Below are positions 1,633 to 19,679 of a stretch of DNA of 50,008 nucleotides, in pieces (positions within the stretch are counted from its first letter, which is position 1; each line of letters begins with the position of its first letter). The stretch lies in contig JAAYGG010000003.1 in NCBI GenBank assembly GCA_012727895.1, forward strand, positions 1-50,008, read 5' to 3'. The position numbers and the translations under genes are program-made. The notes under the pieces were generated by a model. That model searched no databases and was not told where the DNA came from. It saw only the letters and a program-made list of their open reading frames with translations. The stretch is from Bacillota bacterium (GTDB lineage: Bacteria > Bacillota > UBA4882 > UBA10575).

Positions 1633-1661
1633 ATCATATAATGAAGCAGCCTGCTTGTAAA
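1633..1661 (-). promoter_or_regulatory. SigA-type promoter of the GcvH-like/DUF951 genes
   Basis: TTTACA (1656-1661) and TATGAT (1633-1638) are separated by exactly 17 nt on the minus strand, about 90 nt upstream of the TTG start. The predicted transcript carries the 1561-1591 hairpin in its leader. Confidence 0.6.
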
Positions 1662-1686
1662 GGGATATTTTAAAGGAGGGACAGGA

Positions 1687-1773
1687 ATGTGCCATTTACT
1701 TGCCGGGCTTCTTAACGGCTTCCTGAAAAAAAACGGCAAGACCATCATTGTGATTCGCCGCAGGAACAGGTAA
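1687..1773 (+). CDS. Candidate 28-residue peptide
   Basis: A short frame on the strand opposite to all neighbours, between birA and the gcvH-like promoter. It starts with ATG behind a very strong AAAGGAGGG ribosome site and ends with TAA. The peptide begins MCHLLAGLLNGFLKKNGKTI and ends in an arginine-rich tail (VIRRRNR), so a short hydrophobic part is followed by a basic part. No family is recognised. No good -35 is visible in front of it. It could be a real small protein, a leader peptide or chance; the ribosome site is the main argument. Confidence 0.4.
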   Translation: MCHLLAGLLNGFLKKNGKTIIVIRRRNR

Positions 1774-1806
1774 AGATCGCCTTTATTCTTTCCCGGATTA
1801 CCGGGG

Positions 1807-2643
1807 TCAATACGGGGATATGAAACTGACCTCCCCGGTGGCAATGCCGGCGGCTCCGGTCCCGTCATCCAGGAGCAGTTCCAGGCTGCCGTCGTCCCGG
1901 ATTGCCACGGCTTTTCCCCGGTAACACCGGTCCCCGCTTTTTACCTCAACACGCCTCCCCAGGATGAGGGAGTATTGCCGGCAATAGGCCAGAGCCCGCG
2001 CAAACCCGTTTTCCCGGGCGTAAACATACTCCTCTTCCAGCACCGCCAAACAGCGGCGGAGAAGGGTTATTCTATCCACCGGCGCGCCCAGGCTCATCCG
2101 GAGCGAACCGGCCTTTTCCTGGAGATCTCCGGGAAAATCTGCGGCGGTCTGGTTGACATTGATCCCGATCCCCAGGAGCAAATACTCCCACGGGGCGCCC
2201 GCCTTCCCGGCGGTTTCAGCCAAAATCCCCGCAATCTTCCGGTTGTCCAGGTAAAGATCGTTCGGCCATTTAATCAGGGGCGTGAGTTCCAGTTCGGCGG
2301 AGACGGCCCTGGCAACGGCGGCCGCTGCCAGCAACGTCAGTTTGGGCAGTTCCCCCGGGGGGAATGCCGGTTTCAACAGTAAAGTCATCCAGATCCCCGT
2401 ACCGGCCGGCGAAAACCAGCTGCGGCCCAACCTTCCCCGGCCGGCCGTTTGCTTCTCCGCCAAAACAAGCAGGCCCTCCGGCGGGCTTGCCGGGCCCGTC
2501 GCCAATTCCCGCGCCCGCCGGTTGGTGGAAGGAAGTTCCGCGTAATACTCGATCCAATGCCCGGTAAAGCGGGTCGCGAGTCCTTTCTGTACCTCCCACG
2601 GGTAAAGCCGGTCCGGCCGGTACTCCCGCCGAGGATTGGCCAT
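1807..2643 (-). CDS. birA: Biotin--[acetyl-CoA-carboxylase] ligase, catalytic type without HTH
   Basis: Attaches biotin to the lysine of biotin carboxyl carrier proteins via biotinyl-AMP. The 278-residue protein shows the biotin/ATP loop GRGRLGRSWFSPAGTG, the KWPNDLYLDNRKIAGIL motif and the C-terminal SH3-like domain. The usual N-terminal helix-turn-helix of bifunctional BirA repressors is absent, so it should be a ligase only. The ATG at 2643 overlaps the stop of the upstream gene (TAATG) and has a GGGAGG site inside it, indicating translational coupling. A much longer upstream frame was rejected because it runs into the preceding gene. Confidence 0.92.
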   Translation of the reverse strand: MANPRREYRPDRLYPWEVQKGLATRFTGHWIEYYAELPSTNRRARELATGPASPPEGLLVLAEKQTAGRGRLGRSWFSPAGTGIWMTLLLKPAFPPGELPKLTLLAAAAVARAVSAELELTPLIKWPNDLYLDNRKIAGILAETAGKAGAPWEYLLLGIGINVNQTAADFPGDLQEKAGSLRMSLGAPVDRITLLRRCLAVLEEEYVYARENGFARALAYCRQYSLILGRRVEVKSGDRCYRGKAVAIRDDGSLELLLDDGTGAAGIATGEVSFISPY

Positions 2644-3683
2644 TATTTTGCCTCCCAATTCGTCACCCACATCGCCGGGCGGTTCCGGCGAAAGCTGAAA
2701 AAGACCAGTTTTTTCCCGTCCGGGCTCCAAACCGGCGCCGCGCCGTTACTGTTGACTTCCCCGGCCACCAGGCGCCTGCGGCCGGTTTTCAAGTCATAAA
2801 CGAAGAGGGCGGCCCGGTCCCGGGGAAGCTTGCGCTTATCCGGGGTTATCCCGCCCGTGGAAACAAAGGCAAGGTAACGGCCGTCAGGCGAAACCGCGGA
2901 ATACCGGTTGTCATGTTCATCAACGATCAGCGGTTTTTCCTCCCCGGTCGCCAGATCCAGGTACCAGATCCCGCCTTTGCCCAGTTTATAACTGCGATAG
3001 CGGGCGTCCCCGCCACCTCCTGCTGCCGGCAGGGAAATCTCGGTCGGTTCCAGTTCCAAACGGGTGAAATAGATCCTGTTACCAGCCCAGACCGGTGCGG
3101 TAATATACCCTTCCTTGAAGGCGGTTAACTGGGTAACATCCCCGCCTTCTTTTGCCACTACCGCAAGGGCGGAAAGGAAAGGCCCGTCCCCCCGGACAAA
3201 AACCACGGATTTCCCCTCCGGCGACCAGGCGGGATCCCGGTCCCAAGGTCCGGACGTCAACTGGCGCCCTTCTCCCGACGGGTAAGCCTTCCACCAAATA
3301 GAAGAGGCCGTCCCCTCCCCGGTGACCGACTCCGGCCTCCTGCGGACCATTACCACCCCGTCGCCCTGCGGCGACCAGCGGGGGGAGAAATCGATCAGGG
3401 ATCCGGTTCCCGTCCAGTGCAACGGTTCACCGCCGGTTCCCGGCTGGAATATCCAGAGCCGGATTTTTTCAGCCTCCTCACCCTGGAGTTTTCCGGCAAA
3501 AACAACCCTCCCGTTTTTCGCCCAGTCACAGCTCCACACATCATACTCCTCAGGCAAGAGGCAGACCGGCTCCTGCTGCTTGGCGGCGGTAAAAGGGGAA
3601 CTGCCGGCGAAAAAGAGAAAAACCCCCAGAAAAGCAGGGAAGATTAAACTGGAGAAGATAGAGGAATTCCTGAACCGGGCCAT
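2643..3683 (-). CDS. Exported TolB-like beta-propeller protein
   Basis: A 346-residue protein with a signal peptide (hydrophobic run from about residue 9 to 33, ending near FTAAKQ) followed by PD40/WD40-like repeats: SPRWSPQGDGVVMV, DPAWSPEGKSVVFV, SAVSPDGRYLAFV and APVWSPDGKKLVFF. These indicate a TolB-like six- or seven-bladed propeller outside the membrane. No Tol system is nearby, so the partner is unknown. The ATG at 3683 follows an AGGAGG site. It is translationally coupled to birA downstream. Function is not assigned. Confidence 0.75.
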   Translation of the reverse strand: MARFRNSSIFSSLIFPAFLGVFLFFAGSSPFTAAKQQEPVCLLPEEYDVWSCDWAKNGRVVFAGKLQGEEAEKIRLWIFQPGTGGEPLHWTGTGSLIDFSPRWSPQGDGVVMVRRRPESVTGEGTASSIWWKAYPSGEGRQLTSGPWDRDPAWSPEGKSVVFVRGDGPFLSALAVVAKEGGDVTQLTAFKEGYITAPVWAGNRIYFTRLELEPTEISLPAAGGGGDARYRSYKLGKGGIWYLDLATGEEKPLIVDEHDNRYSAVSPDGRYLAFVSTGGITPDKRKLPRDRAALFVYDLKTGRRRLVAGEVNSNGAAPVWSPDGKKLVFFSFRRNRPAMWVTNWEAK

Positions 3684-15451: not shown

Positions 15452-15802
15452 CTAAATCTGCTCCCCCAGTTCCGGTAATGACCCGTTATGAATCTCATAC
15501 GACCAGTTGCGCCCGGTATTATTATCCCAATTGTTGGCCTCGTCGCGAAAACAAAAATTTAACCGGGAGTCATCTGTAACCTTAATCCGTGCCGACCAAG
15601 CCCCGTCCCGGGTTTTGCGCATGGGGATGGTCTGGACGTTCGACCATTCCCCGTAACCAAACCCGGCATGAAGATAGATCTTGCCACTCCCGGTTTTGCT
15701 GAGCATTCCCTTGTATTTGATGCGGATCTCGTCGCCAAGGGTCACCGGTACCGGTTCCAGATAAATTCCTTCTGCTACTTCCGCCATTTTTTTCCGGGCC
15801 AT
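15452..15802 (-). CDS. Small cytoplasmic CBM25-like carbohydrate-binding protein
   Basis: A 116-residue protein with no signal peptide. It has the features of starch/glycogen-binding domains of the CBM25 type: a beta-rich core with YLHAGFGYGEWSNVQTIPMR, then WSARIKV, LNFCFRDEANNWDNNTGRNW and YEIHNG. Aromatic residues at Gly-Tyr-Gly-Glu-Trp and Asn-Trp-Asp are those expected to stack on sugars. The ATG at 15802 has GAAGGAGGAAG before it. Because it lacks an export signal it may bind an intracellular glucan such as glycogen (inference). No glycogen genes are in the window. Confidence 0.65.
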   Translation of the reverse strand: MARKKMAEVAEGIYLEPVPVTLGDEIRIKYKGMLSKTGSGKIYLHAGFGYGEWSNVQTIPMRKTRDGAWSARIKVTDDSRLNFCFRDEANNWDNNTGRNWSYEIHNGSLPELGEQI

Positions 15803-15873: not shown

Positions 15874-15931
15874 CCGGGGCCAATCATTCCTTCCCCGGAG
15901 GCAACCACTGCTTTCCGGGGCCAATCATTCC
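15874..15931 (-). repeat. Short repeats at the guaA 3' end
   Basis: The 17-mer CCGGGGCCAATCATTCC occurs at 15874-15890 and again at 15915-15931, the second copy overlapping the guaA stop codon. A related CCCCGGAGGCAACCACT lies between them. The unit is about 40 bp, so the guaA tail looks partly duplicated. CCGGGG and CCCCGG also allow a 6-bp hairpin. Confidence 0.55.
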
Positions 15932-17532
15932 CACTCGATGGTCCCCGGGGGTTTGGCGGTTATGTCGTAAACAACCCGGTTGATCCCGGGAACTTCGGCA
16001 ATGACCCGGCGGGAGATCCGGTCCAAAAGCTCATAGGGCAAGCGGGCCCAATCGGCGGTCATCGCATCCTCGCTGGTCACCGCTCTCAGGACCAGGGCCG
16101 ACTCGTAGGTCCGCTGGCCGTCCGTCACCCCGGTGCTTTTTTCTCCGGTCAAGATGGCAAAGGACTGCCAAAGCTTCCGGGACCAGCCGGCGACGGCAAT
16201 CTCCTGATTGACAATGCTGTCCGCCTCCCGCAGCAAGGTCAGCCTTTCCGGGGTGACCTCGCCAATTACCCGTACAGCCAAACCCGGTCCGGGGAAAGGT
16301 TGCCTCCAGACCACCTCTTCCGGGATGCCCAATTCTTCGCCGACCACCCGCACCTCGTCCTTAAAGAGCAGGCGCAACGGCTCCAAAAGCTTAAACTGGA
16401 GATCCGCCGGCAGGCCGCCGACATTATGGTGGCTTTTGACCTTGACTGTCTGGCCGTCTTCCGTCATGCTTTCAATGACGTCCGGGTAAAGGGTCCCTTG
16501 GAGCAGGAAATCGATCTTCCCCAGTTTCCGTGCTTCCTCCTCAAAAACCCGGATAAACTCTTCCCCGACCACCCGGCGTTTTTCTTCCGGGTCGACCACC
16601 CCCCGCAGCCGGCCCAAAAACCGTTCCGCTGCGTCGACCGCGACCAAATTCAAATGGAACTGCTCCGCAAAGATCTTCTGCACTTCCCCGGCTTCGCCTT
16701 TGCGCAGCAAACCATGGTCCACAAAGACACAGGTCAATTGGGGACCAATCGCCCGGTGGGCAAGGACCGCTGCCACCGCCGAATCCACCCCGCCGCTTAA
16801 AGCACAGAGAACCCGGCCGTTGCCAACCTCCTCTTTGATCCCGGCGATTGTCCGCTCGATGAACGATCCGGGAGTCCAGGAAGGCCGGCAGTCACAGGGG
16901 CCGGAAAGGAAATTCTCTAAAACCGTAAACCCGGCCGGGGTCCGGAAGACCCCTGGATGAAACTGCAGCCCGTAAAGGCGGCGCTCGTCATCGCCGACCG
17001 CGGCTACGGGCGTATTGACGGTTGCCGCCAGCACCGCAAAACCCGGCGGCGCCGTTTTTACCCGGTCGCCCCGGCTCATCCACACCTCAACCCCTGCGGG
17101 CAACCGGAAAAAAAGCGGTTTTTCCTTTATGATCTCCAAGTTCTCCCTGTTCTCTGCAGGCGCGTCCTCTGAAGCCTGCGCAGACATGGAAGTGTTCTCC
17201 GGAGCGTGCGTAGACACGCCTTCTTCCCAAGCGGCGTTTCCCGTAACCTCCCCGCCGAACTCCCGTGCCAAAAGCCCCATGCCGGCGCCAATGGCCAGGA
17301 CCGGGATGCCCAGGTGAAATATGCCCGGATGGCACCGGGAGGCGGCGGGCCCGGCGCTCCCCGGCCCTCCGGGAAGGATTATCCCGCGGGGGGCTAGCGC
17401 CTTCAGTTTCTCCGGCCGGGTACCTGCAGGCAAAATCTCACTGAAAACCTTTGCCTCCCGGACCCGCCGGGCCAAAAGCCGGCTGGCTTGCGAATCAAGA
17501 TCAAGAACAACGATGGTATCTATACCCGTCAT
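15925..17532 (-). CDS. guaA: GMP synthase with degenerate glutaminase domain
   Basis: Aminates XMP to GMP. The 535-residue protein has an N-terminal class-I glutaminase-type domain (1-215), an ATP-pyrophosphatase domain (LSGGVDSAV, about 245-253) and the C-terminal dimerisation domain ([29 protein letters not shown] end). In normal GuaA the glutaminase nucleophile is Cys in GICYGMQ; here the segment is AIGAGMG, with Gly82 in its place. The triad Glu of FHPEV is Gly194 (FHPGVF); the His remains. A Ser/Ala/Glu-rich insertion lies at about 105-130. Glutamine hydrolysis should be lost, leaving an ammonia-dependent enzyme. The ATG at 17532 follows GAAGGTG. Confidence 0.9.
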
Positions 17533-17636
17533 CTTCTGCACCTTCTTACCCTTCTCTTTCTTTCATTTCTCATTCAAGGACAGGGGCGCGCCAGGCGGTC
17601 CGCCTTCCTTTCTTCCGTTAACAGCATCTTCCCCTT

Positions 17637-18203
17637 TTAGTTCTCCTCTTTTCCGCTGTTCTTCTCAGTGCTGTAAACCTCCGGCTTTAGCGCGGCAATC
17701 ATGGGTAATTGCCGGTAACGCTGGGCATAGTCCAAGCCATACCCGACAACAAACTTGTCGGGGATGACAAAACCGCTGTAATCCGGGGCAATCTCGGTTT
17801 TCCGGCGCGAAGGCTTATCCAGCAGGACACAGGATTTTAAACTCGCCGGCTGGCGCGAGGACAAGGTGGTAATTAGGTATCTAAGGGTCAACCCGGTATC
17901 AACGATATCTTCAATGATCAACACATGTTCATTTTGGATACTGACATCTATATCTTTGATAATCCGGACAATCCCCGAGGAACTGGTGGAAGCCCCGTAG
18001 CTGGAGACGGCGATCAAATCATAGCGCAGGGGTACCTTTATCTCCCGGATCAGGTCCGCCATGAACATCAGCGACCCTTTTAAGACGCCGACCACGATCA
18101 ATTCTTTGCCTTCATAATCCTTATTGATTTGGTTGCCCAGTTCTTTTACCCGCGCGGCAATCTCCTCCGCCGAAAAAAGGATCTCTGCTAAATCCTGCAT
18201 CAT
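17637..18203 (-). CDS. hpt: Hypoxanthine phosphoribosyltransferase
   Basis: Salvages hypoxanthine and guanine to IMP and GMP using PRPP. The 188-residue protein has the PRPP-binding motif VLIIEDIVDTGLTL, the flexible-loop region VSSYGASTSSSG, LLDKPSRRKTEI and the end DKFVVGYGLDYAQRYRQLP. The start is one of two adjacent ATGs (18203 or 18200) after GAGGAGTAAGG. Its upstream neighbour is a kinase-like membrane protein and its downstream neighbour is guaA, so two routes to GMP are adjacent. In many Firmicutes hpt lies between tilS and ftsH; those genes are 5 kb away here. Confidence 0.95.
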   Translation of the reverse strand: MMQDLAEILFSAEEIAARVKELGNQINKDYEGKELIVVGVLKGSLMFMADLIREIKVPLRYDLIAVSSYGASTSSSGIVRIIKDIDVSIQNEHVLIIEDIVDTGLTLRYLITTLSSRQPASLKSCVLLDKPSRRKTEIAPDYSGFVIPDKFVVGYGLDYAQRYRQLPMIAALKPEVYSTEKNSGKEEN

Positions 18204-18272
18204 AATTACCTTACTCCTCCTCTTGTTCGTTTCTATCATCCCCGCGCGCCTCTCCCGGCAAACCCGGGGGTG

Positions 18273-19679
18273 TTAACGGGCCGGGTTCATAACCACCGGT
18301 TCCGTCCCTTCCGACAGGATCTCCGTTTGCACCTCGACTATTTGCCATTTATACTTTTTCCACCCATGCTTAACCCGTTCCAAAACAAGGCGTTCCTCCC
18401 GCTCCTGGACCGTATACTCTTCCCCGCTGACATACTTCAGGCGGAAACTGCTCCGGAAGGACGGGCGCTCCGCCGGCGAGTCTTCTTCCGGTTCGATGCG
18501 GAGATTCTCCAGGACAATGAAGGGGAAACGCACACCCTCATAGAGCATCCGGGTCTTGGAGATTACATGCAACGTGACGGTTAAATTGATATATTCCTTC
18601 CCGGCCTCGCCGGTCACCGTCTGCTCCATTAGCACATGGTCAATATCAGCCAGGCCCTGGTAAAAATAGGCAACCACCTCTTCCGGGGTGGTCTCCGGGG
18701 TGACCACCTCCTCATACCCAGGCTTAGAAAGGAGGTAAAAAAGGACTAGAGCCGGGAGGAGGATGAGGACCGGCCACTTTGCCCTCGCCCACCACCGGTA
18801 GGCCCTCCTTTTTTGCTCCAACCGGCGCCGCGCCCGCTCCCCCTCGCCGGCAAAATGCTCTTTCTCCGTGGCCGTGGCCAAAAACCGGTCCTGGTGGTAT
18901 AATTCGCGGAGCCCGTCGAGAAACTCCTGCAAACCCGGGCGTTCCGCCGGAACCTTGCCCAGAAGCCTCTGGAGTAAAACCGCGAATGCGCCCCCGATCT
19001 CCGGTTGGTGATACCTGGGGTCCAACGGCTCTTCCTTTAAAATTGCGGCAGCGGTCTCTTCTTTCCGTTCCAAAGGAAAGGGATAAACCCCGGTCGCCAA
19101 ATAATACATGGTGAGGCCGATGGTATACAAGTTGGCCTTCTCATCCCACTGGGCATCCTCGATAATCTCCGGGGGCAGAAAAGCCTCCCGCAACTCTTCT
19201 CCTTCCCGGTAAGGGGCGAGCATAGCCTGGACACGGGGGTCAAGGACACAGGTTTTTCCCGCGCCCAGGGGGATCAGATCCATATAAAAGAACCCCTGGG
19301 GATACTCGCCCTGTTCCCCGAAGAAACGCAGGGCTTCGCCCATTGCCTCCCCGGCCCCAACCACCTCTTTCAGGGTAAGATCAGCCGCCCCCAACCGGGG
19401 CCAGTATTCCCATACTTCCCGCTGGAAGGGGAGGACCAGGTAGTAATCTTCACCAACCCTCTCCACCCCCAGGTAGGTCAGGAGGCTGCCGCCAGGGGAC
19501 GCCGGTAATCGCCGGATCATCTCCCGCAGGTCATGCAGGAACTCCAGGAAAAAGCGTTCCTTTGGGGAAATGGCAAGCTCCAGGGCTTCCAGGAGGTACT
19601 TTTCGCCCTTTTCGTTCCGGGCCAGGCAGAGTCTTCTCCCGTTCCCTCCAATCTTGGCGGCGGTGATTTTCAGCCCCAC
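18273..19679 (-). CDS. Membrane-anchored protein-kinase-like protein (probable pseudokinase)
   Basis: A 468-residue protein with a cytoplasmic domain resembling a Hanks-type kinase C-lobe: LPPEIIEDAQWDEKANLYTI followed by GLTMYYLATGVYPF matches the APE...D..SLG....TG..PF signature. Catalytic landmarks are missing: the beta-3 Lys position reads YLLEALEL, the HRD loop reads FFYMDLIPLG and DFG reads LDPR. A single transmembrane helix (WPVLILLPALVLFYLL, about 302-317) leads to an outside domain with an NTF2-like start (TPEEVVAYFYQGLADID). The start is GTG at 19679 behind GGAGG. Position next to hpt recalls YabT, the membrane kinase of the B. subtilis spoIIE-hprT region, so this may be its degenerate counterpart (inference). 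Confidence 0.65.
   Translation of the reverse strand: MGLKITAAKIGGNGRRLCLARNEKGEKYLLEALELAISPKERFFLEFLHDLREMIRRLPASPGGSLLTYLGVERVGEDYYLVLPFQREVWEYWPRLGAADLTLKEVVGAGEAMGEALRFFGEQGEYPQGFFYMDLIPLGAGKTCVLDPRVQAMLAPYREGEELREAFLPPEIIEDAQWDEKANLYTIGLTMYYLATGVYPFPLERKEETAAAILKEEPLDPRYHQPEIGGAFAVLLQRLLGKVPAERPGLQEFLDGLRELYHQDRFLATATEKEHFAGEGERARRRLEQKRRAYRWWARAKWPVLILLPALVLFYLLSKPGYEEVVTPETTPEEVVAYFYQGLADIDHVLMEQTVTGEAGKEYINLTVTLHVISKTRMLYEGVRFPFIVLENLRIEPEEDSPAERPSFRSSFRLKYVSGEEYTVQEREERLVLERVKHGWKKYKWQIVEVQTEILSEGTEPVVMNPAR

Follow-up and report, generated by a model that had tools for sequence, protein, structure and literature searches.

The GMP synthase (GuaA) encoded in the window, by which we mean the whole 50,008-nucleotide stretch of DNA analysed, is very probably an ammonia-dependent GMP synthetase and one case of a family-wide move from glutamine to free ammonia. 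As read from the sequences of this protein and its relatives, the glutaminase half is broken and decaying and the synthetase half is intact and constrained; from this evidence we infer that free NH3 is the nitrogen donor in the cell. The two halves and the neighbouring gene lie in the window as follows.

15925 to 17541, minus strand: guaA, GMP synthase with a putatively inactivated glutaminase domain (538 aa, GTG start, intact frame)
16888 to 17520, minus strand: class-I glutamine amidotransferase (GATase) domain with a broken triad, approximately residues 8-218 (PF00117, 88.8 bits; alignments)
17287 to 17289, minus strand: codon of Gly85 (GGC), replacing the nucleophile Cys (alignment)
16957 to 16959, minus strand: codon of His195, the sole triad residue kept (alignment)
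16951 to 16953, minus strand: codon of Gly197, replacing the triad Glu (alignment; Glu in the congeners, Ala in G004)
17155 to 17235, minus strand: Ser/Ala/Glu-rich insertion of the window's genus, approximately residues 103-129 (alignment; low predicted confidence)
15928 to 16866, minus strand: ATP-pyrophosphatase (ATPPase) and dimerisation half, residues 226-538, intact (PF00958, 134 bits; TIGR00884, 481.7 bits)
17637 to 18239, minus strand: hpt, hypoxanthine phosphoribosyltransferase, upstream neighbour of guaA (TIGR01203, 220.4 bits)

The C-terminal models, the PP-loop SGGVDS and the HHN lid motif place the window protein in the GuaA family. It scored above the cut-offs of the full-length "glutamine-hydrolyzing GMP synthase" model (PRK00074, NCBIfam; 675.9 versus 400 bits) and of the C-terminal model TIGR00884 (481.7 versus 338.75 bits), and below that of the N-terminal model TIGR00888 (151.5 versus 172.15 bits); the broader Pfam GATase model PF00117 was exceeded (88.8 versus 22.8 bits). 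The predicted structure has the GMP synthetase fold, with 7sbc as its best Foldseek match (TM-score 0.85 by query and 0.90 by target). SGGVDS and HHN are invariant in 24 aligned GuaA, and with the models above cut-off and purifying selection on this half (see below) the initial annotation was right to call the synthetase half intact.

The Cys-His-Glu triad of glutamine-hydrolysing class-I amidotransferases reads Gly85, His195 and Gly197 in the window GuaA. Both replacements had been noticed in the initial annotation, which numbered from an in-frame ATG three codons downstream of the GTG, so that its Gly82 in AIGAGMG corresponds to our Gly85 and its Gly194 in FHPGVF to our Gly197. The site aligned with Gly85 is Cys in all 85 other GuaA, a count taken apart from nine dead GuaA, duplicate loci and locus L031 (copies without the nucleophile are called dead here, and those with it live). 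The insertion described within the glutaminase domain is real as well: it follows the nucleophile helix in the window and its two congeners, varies in sequence and length among these three genomes of the genus, and has a pLDDT below 50 at residues 103-129 against a mean of 79.8 for the predicted model. A synthetase half that is intact joined to a glutaminase that is broken is the pattern of a candidate ammonia-dependent GMP synthetase, and it exposes an annotation error, in that curated models label this protein "glutamine-hydrolyzing".

The GTDB family of the window's genome comprises 16 genomes; the order holds 17 and the class 29, and the class was therefore used as the outgroup. The genomes are drafts throughout, in which absences could be gaps. 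We found guaA in 15 of the 16 family genomes; G003 (94% complete) yielded neither guaA nor a PurQ/PurL glutaminase match. Gly replaces the nucleophile Cys in nine of the 15 GuaA (G000, which is the window's genome, G010, G011, G002, G004, G006, G001, G014 and G015), and Cys is kept in six (G005, G007, G008, G009, G012 and G013). In the class outside the family, Cys was present in 12 of 12 GuaA read, none being dead, and G027 (72% complete) gave no GuaA match. Across 84,980 species, each represented by one genome, a scan confirmed at least 585 GuaA loci, and among the best 80 of these, which are the loci we named, 79 of the 79 other than L031 have Cys. L031 is a dead GuaA that belongs to the genome of G011 (the two sequences do not differ over 1500 bp), the MAG AS08sgBPME_117; the AS08sgBPME series comes from a biogas-reactor study (PMC7038595), whose relevant passages concern another MAG of the series.

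The question had been raised of whether a clade shares both losses. The Cys loss is indeed common to all three genomes of the window's genus (G000, G010 and G011), which are among the nine family copies above. The Glu loss is not shared in this way: among full-length family GuaA it occurs in the window (Gly) and in G004 (Ala), and the window's congeners keep Glu.

The dead GuaA differ in how far their glutaminase halves have changed. Cys alone is lost in G002, G006, G010 and G011, Cys and Glu are lost in the window GuaA, and all three triad residues are lost in G004 (QFLPA). In G015, G014 and G001 the middle of the GATase domain is deleted, with the first ~100 residues kept and Gly where the nucleophile turn had been. 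Apart from that of G010, every dead GuaA has an open frame through its synthetase half. The G010 guaA (L003, frame 1645-3126, minus strand) has an in-frame TAG at the position of the window's Glu491, 48 codons before the end, after which homology resumes; this may be a sequencing error or a true nonsense mutation. Together, the copies would provide natural stages in the decay of a single domain that is fused to an apparently working enzyme.

To count the losses, we compared trees. On the synthetase half, a single clade of dead GuaA was ruled out (AU test, p 6e-50) and three changes are needed. The tree of three concatenated proteins requires four, namely in the window's genus, in G014 and G015, in G001, and in G002, G004 and G006, a count that leaves out G003, which is without guaA. 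Several forks are weak, the starred branches alone force only two changes in either tree, and the class outgroup G017 was placed among the family in the concatenated tree. One early loss of Cys followed by its regain through gene transfer is formally possible; regain of Cys together with the pocket is unlikely, and we therefore read the changes as three to four losses of the GuaA nucleophile within the family, each to Gly, on trees whose forks are partly weak.

Selection on the two halves differs between dead and live copies. dN/dS of the GATase half was 0.225-0.421 in six dead pairs (among the three members of the window's genus, and among G002, G004 and G006) versus 0.058-0.136 in five live pairs, and that of the synthetase half was 0.056-0.160 in dead versus 0.015-0.074 in live pairs. 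The synthetase-half values of the window's genus (0.115-0.160; 0.115-0.119 for the window versus its congeners) lie above those of the live pairs. The pair G014-G015 stands outside these ranges, with a value of 0.125 for its GATase remnant at a saturated dS of 2.7. Amino-acid changes fell 106:48 between the GATase and synthetase halves in two disjoint dead pairs versus 71:65 in three live pairs (Fisher p 0.005).

The same pattern appeared at conserved sites, which were defined on named live GuaA with duplicate loci and L031 set aside. Full-length dead copies kept 173 of 234 conserved GATase cells (74%) versus 227 of 234 (97%) in live family GuaA. At conserved synthetase sites they kept 582 of 648 (90%, part of the shortfall being due to the cut G010 frame) versus 629 of 648 (97%), and the three GATase-truncated relatives kept 310 of 324 (96%). 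The sites lost in at least four of the six full-length dead copies are I23, V63, G83, C85, Q89, W154, H157, V198 and H200. I23 and V63 are replaced by other hydrophobic residues, and the erosion extends to the pocket, with Q89 lost in four of six copies, W154 in five (it is kept in the window) and H157 in four. Position 23, Ile in every live GuaA of the alignment, has become Leu in each of the six full-length dead copies, which stem from two separate losses. Constraint on the dead GATase halves is relaxed, not absent, with dN/dS still below 1, and all six full-length dead copies keep D14, L22, A24, R25, R28, E29, G58, G59, P80, G87, D159 and nine other residues. Some role of the dead half may therefore remain; the N-terminal helix, for instance, may still be needed at the interface.

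Of the three readings offered in the initial annotation, namely free ammonia, an ammonia-supplying partner or a regulatory domain, free ammonia is the best supported, the regulator is left standing and the partner is not supported; the observation behind them is confirmed and its interpretation is partly supported. Biochemical work bears on the first of these. Passages of PMC10526850 describe how the synthetase half of GMP synthetases adenylates XMP and how external ammonia completes the reaction in vitro, with Km values for NH4+ of 4.1 mM for the M. jannaschii ATPPase subunit, 103 mM for the E. coli enzyme and 174 mM for the human enzyme. In the parts of PMC4673825 that treat the C89A mutant of PfGMPS, glutamine activity is gone and the ammonia reaction is retained (Km for NH4Cl 8 versus 19 mM, kcat 63 versus 55 per min), and the isolated PfGMPS ATPPase half works with ammonia at a 5.9-fold lower kcat and a 2.7-fold lower Km for NH4Cl. 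By analogy, the ATPPase half of the window GuaA would adenylate XMP and then aminate it with NH3 from solution, and the glutaminase half, unable to hydrolyse glutamine, would be decaying. The C89A kinetics suggest that at high ammonium the loss of Cys would cost little; and since glutamine bound to C89A slows the ammonia reaction, erosion of the pocket might next be favoured and deletion of the domain finally follow.

The rival that survives best, though we consider it unlikely, is that the dead half now regulates, for instance by sensing glutamine and slowing the ammonia reaction, a role compatible with ammonia as the donor. Glutamine bound to PfGMPS C89A does slow its ammonia reaction, according to the same passages (PMC4673825). 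The dead-half dN/dS below 1 would suit such a role, and so would the residues kept in all six full-length copies. Among these is D159, which by alignment would correspond to the glutamine-binding Asp172 of PfGMPS (mutation of D172 raises the Km for glutamine 170-fold; PMC4673825, same passages); the window also keeps W154, and the first ~100 residues survive even in the three deleted forms. However, Q89, W154 and H157 of the pocket are eroded in most full-length dead copies, the middle of the domain is deleted in three relatives, and the kept residues could be explained by folding or by the synthetase interface.

The free-ammonia reading gains from the main point, which lay beyond the view of the initial annotation: glutaminase death also occurs across the family in CarA, PurL/PurQ, AsnB and some PyrG. 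CarA was found in eight of the 16 family genomes, and all eight have Gly for Cys; the catalytic His is also changed, the motif reading QYQPE, EFYPE or QYRAE versus QYHPE in six CarA from outside the family. In the window's genome and its two congeners, carB is present without an adjoining carA, and in G005 and G001 pyrC and carB lie with no carA between them. G014 and G015 showed no carA and no carB above the cut-off, and the G006 contig ends inside carB. There was no CarA among the four PF00117 matches of the sister-family genome G016, so that absence of carA is not confined to the window's family. A carB match in G012 (C116:3867-6998) contains an in-frame stop, TAG.

Fifteen family genomes yielded a PurL glutaminase domain or PurQ, which is dead in 11 of them, with Gly in G000, G010, G011, G015, G001 and G012, Ala in G002, G004, G006 and G007, and Asp in G014; it is live in G005, G008, G009 and G013. 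Dead PyrG accounts for two of 17 copies (that of G012 and one of two in G013), the other 15 keeping Cys. PabA/TrpG has Ser for Cys in G010 (L142, GVSLGS) and is live in G009. Overall, Gly occupies the nucleophile site in 25 of the 31 dead class-I copies read in the family. Gly suits the nucleophile turn of the class-I GATase fold, where the backbone is strained. A Gly codon can be turned into one for Ala or Asp by a single base change, whereas a Cys codon needs two, which is consistent with Gly as an intermediate. By comparison, all 30 class-I loci read outside the family have Cys and His-x-Glu (10 GuaA, which are also among the 12 class GuaA above, 10 PabA/TrpG, six CarA and four PyrG); the AsnB and PurL/PurQ counts cover the family.

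Among class-II enzymes, a short AsnB lacks Cys1 in 12 of 12 copies (Ala in seven, Ser in five), and in the two of these copies run against Pfam the GATase profile matches over no more than its last third. The AsnB comparison was made inside the family, and the short AsnB may once have had Cys1. AsnB-like proteins of another type in G014 (L178) and G015 (L176) were left out of this count, and two further class-II matches (in L256 and L258) were not scored. Full-length AsnB with Cys occurs in G005 and G013, on contigs with two glnA and glmS. Contigs of this kind are G005:C32, G013:C131, G003:C76/C183 and G008:C2, and the glmS contigs looked at also carry full-length asnB, a hisH-like gene or a second pyrG. 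Such contigs, on which glutamine-using genes are kept live side by side, may represent a gene cluster for surface polysaccharide or an island that was acquired.

PurF keeps Cys in 15 of 15 family copies. GlmS is recognisable in five of the 16 family genomes, with Cys in both copies read, and PF01182 (NagB) matches occur in all 16. GlmS is not known to use ammonia. A hypothetical rule under which glutaminases die where the partner accepts NH3 easily would be consistent with PurF being spared and with GlmS being either wholly present or wholly absent. Glutamine is not wholly abandoned: PurF and most PyrG keep Cys, and all 16 family genomes have glutamine synthetase.

Within the window's own genome, GuaA and the PurL glutaminase are dead and AsnB is without Cys1, and PyrG (with Cys) and PurF are live. 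carB is present, and no carA was found; glutaminyl- and asparaginyl-tRNA synthetases, read from translations, adjoin carB. The genome has no SIS-domain match, and hence no recognisable GlmS. NagB scored above its cut-off (TIGR00502, 287.8 versus 236.9 bits) and glutamine synthetase is present. It would seem that glutamine is still made and used in this genome, but that fewer enzymes can take its nitrogen.

This inventory bears on whether a separate glutaminase or amidotransferase subunit feeds ammonia to GuaA, as in the archaeal two-subunit enzyme, which we regard as very improbable. Two-subunit GMP synthetases do exist, as described in passages of PMC10526850. The initial annotation had suggested looking for a second guaA or a stand-alone glutaminase, and neither turned up. 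The only other guaA match in the window's genome is 29% identical over residues 232-418 (E 6.6e-4), and the class-I search returned three PF00117 matches, which are GuaA itself, PyrG and a gamma-glutamyl-GABA hydrolase-like protein (under the cut-off of that model); none is a dedicated partner, and no class-I glutaminase partner gene for GuaA was found in this genome. A single partner would need to supply CarB, PurL and AsnB as well.

It is equally hard to credit that GuaA is a vestige and that the cell relies on guanine salvage through the neighbouring hpt, the next gene. The in-frame TAG of the G010 guaA and the failure to find guaA in G003 would accord with a vestige. The synthetase half of the window GuaA, however, is intact and under purifying selection, and the GATase-truncated relatives retain nearly all of their conserved synthetase sites. 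The initial annotation had pointed to hpt as a second route to GMP. Its adjacency holds, but compensation for a dead GuaA does not, in that, of 15 further genomes checked, six have hpt next to guaA and in two of these six (G009 and G016) the GuaA is live; the other nine were without hpt within the stretch examined around guaA.

Sequencing or assembly error, which had been proposed as a possible refutation and for which a draft genome in 164 contigs might speak, is almost certainly not the explanation, because the same residue is changed in nine of 15 family GuaA from separate genomes with differing Gly codons (GGC, GGT and GGG, with other Gly codons in the congeners G010 and G011 than in the window) and the equivalent site is changed in other enzymes too; this reading is refuted for Cys and is improbable for the window's Glu change, at a residue that the congeners keep. 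A changed genetic code was also considered and rejected: the altered codons are GGN, and all three stop codons serve as ends in the 31 window frames taken as genes (TAA in 19, TGA in 8 and TAG in 4).

Beyond GuaA, it seems fairly likely that the whole family is switching its biosynthetic nitrogen donor from glutamine to free ammonia, in GuaA (repeatedly and in parallel), CarA/CarB, PurL/PurQ, AsnB and some PyrG, with the 16 genomes at many stages, which range from a single Cys change through deletion of the domain to loss of the gene; NagB, run towards synthesis with ammonia, may carry out the GlmS step. The likely cause would be an ammonium-rich niche and cell interior, in which synthetases that accept NH3 directly could do without a glutaminase. 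In passages of PMC7038595, one biogas plant held 4.2 g/L total ammonia, or ~0.3 M if expressed as nitrogen, a figure that is not tied to the reactor of L031.

Compared with the single-chain bacterial GuaA of E. coli (PDB 1gpm) and A. baumannii (7sbc), the window protein has the same domain order, fold, synthetase motifs and dimerisation domain, but is without the nucleophile Cys and the triad Glu, has a partly eroded pocket and carries the low-confidence insertion. It resembles the engineered PfGMPS C89A in that the nucleophile is removed and the synthetase half intact. However, C89A, as passages of PMC4673825 describe it, is a laboratory Ala mutant that keeps NH4Cl-dependent activity, whereas the losses in the window's family are natural and recurrent, are to Gly and have led on to further decay. 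Natural cases of class-I GATase triad loss with a shift to free ammonia are vertebrate CPS I and the CPS III of the fish Alcolapia; in the passages of PMC7657897 this concerns one urea-cycle enzyme, whereas here several biosynthetic amidotransferases of one bacterial family are affected. The single-domain NAD synthetase NadE also uses ammonia, and such enzymes are common; passages of PMC3376133 propose the ammonia form as ancestral and the glutaminase as recruited, whereas here the glutaminase is being lost. The synthetase subunit of the archaeal two-subunit GMP synthetase works on its own with ammonia (passages of PMC10526850), but that enzyme has a live separate GATase subunit, and none was found in the window's genome.

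Table 1 of PMC3376133, which covers ~800 prokaryotic genomes and tabulates gene arrangement, not catalytic residues, has no guaA (730 genomes), asnB (700), pyrG (800), purL (660) or carAB (600) without its glutaminase component. The PMC literature searched by title and abstract, which includes few subscription journals, gave no report of a natural glutaminase-dead GMP synthase or of a bacterial family with many dead amidotransferases. As far as we have seen, the kind of change is known but the enzyme affected is new, and the breadth of the change within one bacterial lineage is apparently new as well. That free cellular ammonia is typically low is the accepted reason why glutamine serves as the amide donor. 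In this family one can test directly what preserves glutaminases over evolution, and whether the ambient ammonium level decides it.

Several minor observations concern neighbouring and related genes. The NagB proteins of the window's genus (L241, L242 and L243, from G000, G010 and G011) depart from their relatives at GATPVG and GRDGHWAFNEP and keep FNLDEY and GH..FNEP; they could be tuned to another direction or substrate. A nagB-like match in G002 (C156:20251-20871) contains an in-frame TAA. Downstream of guaA, positions 15452-15802 (minus strand) of the window encode a small protein matching the carbohydrate-binding module families CBM53 and CBM25. Upstream of hpt, the frame at 18273-19679 (minus strand) has a weak protein-kinase match (30.6 bits, below the Pfam cut-off of 31.7) and is possibly a degenerate kinase; a similar frame occupies the same place in L031.
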